Assembly: GCF_003967175.1 (NCBI RefSeq)
Contig: NZ_AP018553.1
Location: 806,001 to 870,000 of the forward strand
Direction of reading: 5' to 3'
DNA length: 64,000 nt
Source of the DNA: Sulfodiicoccus acidiphilus
GTDB lineage: Archaea > Thermoproteota > Thermoprotei_A > Sulfolobales > Sulfolobaceae
Both the position numbers and the translations under genes were made by a program. The notes under the pieces are model-generated. The model did not search any database. It saw only the letters and a program-made list of their open reading frames with translations, and had not been told where the DNA came from. This document shows positions 12,788 to 12,964 of the stretch, piece after piece. Position 1 is the stretch's first letter, and every line of letters starts with the position of its first letter.

Positions 12788-12854
12788 TTGGGTTCGCTAT
12801 CCCTTCTGTGACGTATGTTAAAACATTTTTACTCCCGCTGGCACCTTAAGGTGC

Positions 12855-12964
12855 GCCGGGGTGGCCGAGCGGTCAAAGGCGACACCGCCCAAGGGCGGCG
12901 CTAAGGGCTGCAGAGAATGCCGAAGAGACCCGTTAAATCGCGGGTTCGAATCCCGCCCCCGGCT
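12855..12964 (+). tRNA. tRNA-Cys (GCA) with two introns
   Basis: Acceptor GCCGGGG/CCCCGGC, three-pair D stem, T arm GCGGG-TTCGAAT-CCCGC and discriminator U73, a Cys identity element. The anticodon stem ACGGG/CCCGT forms only after removing 12884-12904 (21 nt, between positions 28 and 29) and 12914-12927 (14 nt, between 37 and 38). The first intron has a textbook bulge-helix-bulge: bulge AC|A, 4-bp helix GGCG/CGCT, bulge AA|G, inner hairpin CCGCC-CAAG-GGCGG. The second has the same plan with one G/A mismatch in the central helix. Anticodon GCA is at 12910-12912. Confidence 0.88.

Follow-up and report, generated by a model that had tools for sequence, protein, structure and literature searches.

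Is the short stretch at 12855-12964 in this DNA of Sulfodiicoccus acidiphilus, an archaeon of hot springs, a true tRNA-Cys gene, how could two introns lying so close together be removed from it, and what is their history? We analysed this locus within its window (the whole stretch of 64,000 nucleotides) and compared it with relatives from the same family and order. The features are collected in Table 1.

Identity of the tRNA-Cys gene

In a cmscan search with the Rfam tRNA model RF00005, the match coincided exactly with 12855-12964 on the plus strand (41.7 bits, E 1.9e-5). Its raw score was the lowest among the window's five tRNAs, and ARAGORN made no tRNA call at this place when run on the 64-kb window. 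Removal of 12884-12904 (21 nt) and 12914-12927 (14 nt) leaves a 75-nt tRNA-Cys(gca) in which all stems are complete, including the anticodon stem ACGGG/CCCGT. ARAGORN called the joined exons tRNA-Cys(gca). The unspliced 110-mer with both introns was wrongly read as tRNA-Leu; with intron 1 alone taken out, the program still recognized tRNA-Cys with a 14-nt intron, and with intron 2 alone taken out the gene was misread. The spliced product has the GCA anticodon, U73 and the cloverleaf of a tRNA-Cys, and its layout is the same as that of the intronless tRNA-Cys of other Thermoproteota (L071, 75 nt; L100). The ends of the RF00005 match and the spliced product bear out the gene call of the preliminary description, which had also assembled the anticodon stem from three exons, just as it appears after splicing. 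That description had named a second intact tRNA-Cys gene as one of the points to look for, and none was found among the 46 tRNA matches of the S. acidiphilus genome (2,353,189 bp, one contig). The locus is the sole tRNA-Cys(GCA) gene of this organism, cut into three exons by two introns, and is presumably essential. Directly 5' of it, at window positions 12841-12854, lies a perfect 14-base palindrome, GCACCTTAAGGTGC, which was not seen in the congener.

Table 1. Features of the S. acidiphilus tRNA-Cys locus (window coordinates) and candidate sRNAs of two relatives
Feature	Coordinates	Strand	Basis
tRNA-Cys(GCA) gene, unspliced	12855..12964	+	RF00005, 41.7 bits; related tRNA-Cys genes across the order
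Exon 1 (positions 1-28)	12855..12883	+	Sequence; tRNA-Cys fold of the spliced product
D-loop GCGGUC, predicted partner of 12906-12911 (GGCUGC) in the precursor	12869..12874	+	Base-pair probability
GGCG (positions 23-26), 5' strand of the intron 1 central helix; partner CGCU at 12899-12902	12878..12881	+	
Bulge ACA on the 5' side of intron 1; predicted cut follows 12883	12882..12884	+	Sequence
Intron 1, 21 nt, at 28/29	12884..12904	+	Missing at the same bond in relatives; core conserved in six genera
Inner hairpin of intron 1, CCGCC-CAAG-GGCGG	12885..12898	+	Compensatory changes across genera
Bulge AAG on the 3' side of intron 1; predicted cut follows 12904	12903..12905	+	Sequence
Exon 2 (positions 29-37), GGGCUGCAG	12905..12913	+	Sequence
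Anticodon GCA	12910..12912	+	Spliced-product call
Intron 2 (37/38, 14 nt); relaxed motif, G34-A mismatch in helix CUGC/GAAG, inner helix nearly absent	12914..12927	+	Sequence; order-wide position
Exon 3 (positions 38-73): T-arm, acceptor, U73 discriminator	12928..12964	+	Spliced-product call
Box C/D-like sRNA, G056	L376:15421-15475 = G056:C1:1435421-1435475		Complementarity of each guide to the tRNA-Cys precursor of that genome
Box C/D-like sRNA, G032	G032:C1:798203 onward (L422)		Complementarity of each guide to the tRNA-Cys precursor of that genome

Structure of the two introns

The core of intron 1 reads GGCG-ACA-(CCGCC CAAG GGCGG)-CGCU-AAG. It has a 4-bp central helix, two 3-nt bulges and a 5-bp inner helix, and the predicted cuts (12883/12884 and 12904/12905) fall between the second and third residues of each bulge. 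Positions 23-25 of the central helix also serve as the 3' strand of the mature D-stem. Intron 1 does not have the strict hBHBh' form, with helices directly on either side of the core: the inner helix is there, but no outer helix adjoins the 3' bulge. Since the nearest outer helix in the predicted fold sits behind a 3x3 internal loop, the motif of intron 1 is a relaxed bulge-helix-bulge (BHB). It had been described as perfect; the four pairs and the two bulges hold, but one of the pairs is G-U and the outer helix is missing at the 3' bulge. Outside this core, folding predicts the D-loop helix listed in Table 1 (6 bp, two of them G-U) with a pair probability of about 0.9 or more at both 37 and 65 C.

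Intron 2 sits at 37/38, and its outer helix is supplied by the anticodon stem (G29-31/C39-41). Its central helix is not fully paired owing to the G34-A mismatch, which makes it a relaxed form as well. The coordinates, the common site and the helix mismatch that had been ascribed to this intron were all found again.

Distribution and history of the introns

When 214 genomes of the order were searched with a sequence pattern and follow-up searches were added, intron 1 was found at the same bond in 20 genomes belonging to six family genera (g1, g3, g5, g6, g7 and g10), in agreement with its original assignment to 12884-12904 and position 28/29. It is missing in g4, g8, g9 and g11 and in all 72 non-family genomes matched by the pattern; g2 and G019, whose genomes are incomplete, stand outside this count. 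Because the intron-free site reads GGCGGCGGGCYGCAG or nearly so, the insertion point is 28/29. All 15 distinct intron 1 sequences share the central helix GGCG/CGCY. In the inner helix, both partners of pairs 2, 3 and 4 vary with pairing kept (C-G to U-A; A-U to G-C; C-G to U-A or A-U). As 20 genomes of six genera keep the same bond and the inner helix shows compensatory changes, these comparisons exclude chance and indicate that intron 1 is real and old. The position had been called rare; this may hold for archaea generally, but not for this family, six genera of which share the intron. The tRNA-Cys at one locus (L243, G003:C1:2152166-2152205) carries an additional G, either as the last letter of intron 1 or as the first of exon 2, so that its cut or its bulge must be displaced by one nucleotide.

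The history of intron 1 was read from an RpoB tree instead of a family 16S tree, full 16S genes coming from too few genomes. On the unrooted tree, presence or absence of the intron amounts to one change (support 95/95). When nine outgroups were added, the intron-bearing g7 and g1 branched first, and the four intronless genera formed one inner clade (88/97). The simplest reading of this tree is that intron 1 was probably gained once on the family stem and lost once. The rpoB gene of S. acidiphilus itself lies in two reading frames (G000:C1:30031-31142; L294, L295) and is whole in the listed relatives, which reflects either a sequencing error or a true split.

The 37/38 intron is found in nearly all relatives read, throughout the order, and the CUGC/GAAG helix with its G34-A mismatch occurs also in the congener G001. 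Judging by this distribution, intron 2 is an old, order-wide intron.

These data bear on two other readings of the locus. Exon 2 is just 9 nt long, so that a single composite excision of 12884-12927 might be proposed instead of two introns, and AGA is repeated at the edges of intron 2, which leaves its exact bond ambiguous by a base or two and could fit another splice register. Both are very improbable, as exon 2 and intron 2 are kept in relatives without intron 1, and a composite excision would take out the anticodon. Even less can be said for a pseudogene or another tRNA with introns arising by chance, to which the missing ARAGORN call and the low raw score would be suited; orthologues throughout the order, conserved introns and the single copy of the gene rule it out. 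We assign a probability of about 0.93 to the reading as a single tRNA-Cys(GCA) gene with two short archaeal introns that would be spliced by the endonuclease, the first of them gained on the family stem and lost once.

In Sulfolobales, tRNA-Cys has been reported to carry C33 and G27-U43 (PMC7668247). The S. acidiphilus gene has U33 (window 12909) together with A27-U43 (12882/12933), and U33 is also present in g7 and most of g10. It was considered that C33 could be an outcome of intron 1, with G18-C33 strengthening the long-range D-loop helix. This is unproven and was set aside: C33 also occurs without intron 1, and U33 in most of g10.

Splicing endonuclease and probable order of splicing

The preliminary description had linked such introns to a heteromeric endonuclease, and both subunits turned out to be encoded in S. 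acidiphilus. Two genes belong to the endonuclease family: the alpha subunit (G000:C1:166298-166525) is closely related to the S. tokodaii EndA structure 2cv8 (E 7e-61), and the beta subunit (G000:C1:83305-83544) is weakly related to the second chain of the A. pernix enzyme, 3p1z_A (E 1.3e-6). The 2cv8-like subunit retains Tyr, His and Lys, which we take to be the residues expected of the catalytic alpha subunit. The motifs of both introns in S. acidiphilus are relaxed forms, and for crenarchaeal EndA cleavage of BHB-like variants has been reported (PMC4307357). In S. tokodaii, spliced and unspliced tRNA-Cys(GCA) cDNAs have been cloned (PMC4307357); since the S. tokodaii gene has no intron 1, these cDNAs back intron 2 only.

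When the unspliced RNA was folded, the intron-1 motif prevailed in the free ensemble, its pairs reaching 0.82-0.99 at 65 C, and the D-stem and anticodon stem were nearly absent. In this fold the D-loop (12869-12874) forms a long-range helix with exon 2 (12906-12911), which sequesters the anticodon and ties up positions 30-35. The stability of the precursor fold is modestly above that of shuffles (z -2.0), with folding parameters that are uncalibrated for an acidophilic thermophile. Because the intron-1 motif dominates the ensemble and sequesters the anticodon, the model makes it likelier that intron 1 is removed first and intron 2 second.

It had been proposed that the outer helix of intron 2 needs the prior removal of intron 1. 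This is correct for pairs 27-43 and 28-42 only; intron 2 is bordered directly by G29-G31 and C39-C41, so that three of the five outer-helix pairs can form beforehand. The three-pair outer helix and the intron-1 core together cost little (-51.6 vs -52.1 kcal/mol). Even so, the order of splicing may matter, given the modelled dominance of the intron-1 motif.

From the sequence and the modelled folds we infer the splicing itself and its order, which could proceed as follows. The precursor would fold first into the intron-1 motif, with the D-stem broken and the D-loop paired with the anticodon. The heteromeric (alpha-beta)2 endonuclease would cut each relaxed BHB between the second and third bulge residues. 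Removal of intron 1 would free the cloverleaf and complete the anticodon stem for intron 2, and a ligase would join the exons after cutting. Coupled neighbouring introns are a situation of a known kind, since tRNAscan-SE 2.0 already handles them by iterative removal (PMC8450103).

Relation to known multi-intron tRNAs

Among crenarchaea, tRNA genes that carry several BHB introns, or BHB introns at noncanonical sites, are prominent in Thermoproteales (PMC4033280). The S. acidiphilus tRNA-Cys shares with crenarchaeal multi-intron tRNAs the short BHB introns, two per gene, the coupled formation of the motifs and the alpha-beta endonuclease; it differs from them in the family-specific 28/29 intron. 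The gene is thus a crenarchaeal multi-intron tRNA, with a building plan already known for archaeal tRNAs. A 28/29 intron in tRNA-Cys is not mentioned in the literature compared, a set that does not include the main intron catalogues (Marck and Grosjean 2003; Sugahara 2007, 2008). The orthologous tRNA-Cys(GCA) of Sulfurisphaera (Sulfolobus) tokodaii (PMC4307357) likewise has the 37/38 intron, but it has no intron 1 and carries C33 and G27-U43 in place of the U33 and A27-U43 of S. acidiphilus.

Introns as possible docking sites for guide sRNAs

The element CCCATCG occurs in 23 of 67 non-family intron 2 sequences, against a shuffle mean of 0.07. Within the family it was found in 6 of 15 distinct intron 1 sequences (genera g3, g5 and g6) and in 0 of 21 intron 2 sequences. 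Neither intron of the S. acidiphilus tRNA-Cys contains it. As a guide against rRNA the element was rejected, there being no complementary site in the 16S or 23S of G056.

In G056, whose genome was read whole, the complement CGATGGGC occurs four times, and one copy forms the D' guide of a box C/D-like candidate sRNA, CCGATGA-GGGTCGATGGGCAGT-CTGA-TAGG-TGGTGA-GATATTGCAGAA-CTGA, with boxes GAUGA, CUGA, UGGUGA and CUGA and a terminal stem. The D' guide makes 9 Watson-Crick pairs with UGCCCAUCG. The D guide makes 8 bp with CUGCAG/UA, where UA are the first two letters of the intron, and the fifth nucleotide upstream of box D stands opposite G34. G032 belongs to another family, has a different intron sequence and was read over 61% of its genome. 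Its best candidate has a D' guide of 11 bp (one G-U) with CCGCCUAUCGA and a D guide again in register for G34; UUGA replaces CUGA in both D boxes. Shuffled introns yielded such double matches at 0.005 and 0 per scan.

In G056 the introns of a tRNA-CAU and of tRNA-Thr(CGU) contain CCGAAATCG, to which the D' guide of another box C/D-like sRNA (G056:C1:1120716 onward) is matched. The D guide of this sRNA stands in register with nucleotide 34 in both tRNAs and also in tRNA-Val. In all, three of six hand-parsed G056 precursors show double pairing, against 0.01 in shuffles.

These data suggest an addition to the splicing account that does not replace it. The introns of the order's pre-tRNA-Cys may carry a site on which a double-guide box C/D sRNA docks with one guide, the other guide directing 2'-O-methylation of the wobble G34. 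This second guide would span the anticodon/intron junction, methylation would precede splicing, and the site would lie in intron 1 in several family genera. We give this idea an even chance. It is favored by the frequency of CCCATCG far above shuffles in both intron sets, by the paired guides on the element and the G34 junction in two divergent relatives with almost no such doubles in shuffled introns, and by the same double pattern for a tRNA-CAU and a tRNA-Thr(CGU). On the other side, the S. acidiphilus introns are without the element, the exact element is absent from most non-family introns, and the sRNA evidence comes from the non-family genomes G056 and G032, the latter with UUGA where CUGA boxes are expected. 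The best Rfam score of the G056 sRNA (sR47, 21.2 bits) is below the gathering value of 40 and the G032 candidate scored with no Rfam family, which is weak evidence against, the models being single-family. The lead was also reached by following one motif, though the shuffled controls support it. No Cys-directed sRNA was found in the S. acidiphilus window and scattered loci, about a tenth of the genome.

A related case is the pre-tRNA-Trp intron, which encodes a box C/D guide for Cm34 and Um39 (reviewed in PMC7994747). As is proposed for the candidate sRNAs of the relatives, that guide pairs with the unspliced precursor and directs methylation at position 34. In contrast to it, the candidate sRNA has a gene of its own, and the intron would serve as the target of one guide and not as the guide itself. 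The same review states that the second guide of tRNA-directed sRNAs has no target (PMC7994747); under the docking idea, the intron in the same precursor would provide one.

A broader proposal, which we regard as tentative and on balance doubtful, is that crenarchaeal tRNA introns are second-site targets of trans-acting double-guide C/D sRNAs, with nucleotide 34 methylated before splicing, that intron 1 of Sulfolobaceae took the docking site over from intron 2 in several genera, and that S. acidiphilus lost it or never had it. The shift of the site from intron 2 to intron 1, suggested by the distribution of the element, is unproven.

Significance

The tRNA-Cys gene offers a clear example of an intron gained and lost in a lineage-specific way. 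The site is unusual, the gene is single-copy, and the precursor fold seems to favor a splicing order. Its own interest is modest, and the docking-site lead is the more surprising of the two. In its broader form that lead, if true, could explain the reported targetless second guides of many tRNA-directed sRNAs and the persistence of such introns. Should methylation guides dock on tRNA introns, the question of why archaea retain these introns would in part become directly testable.
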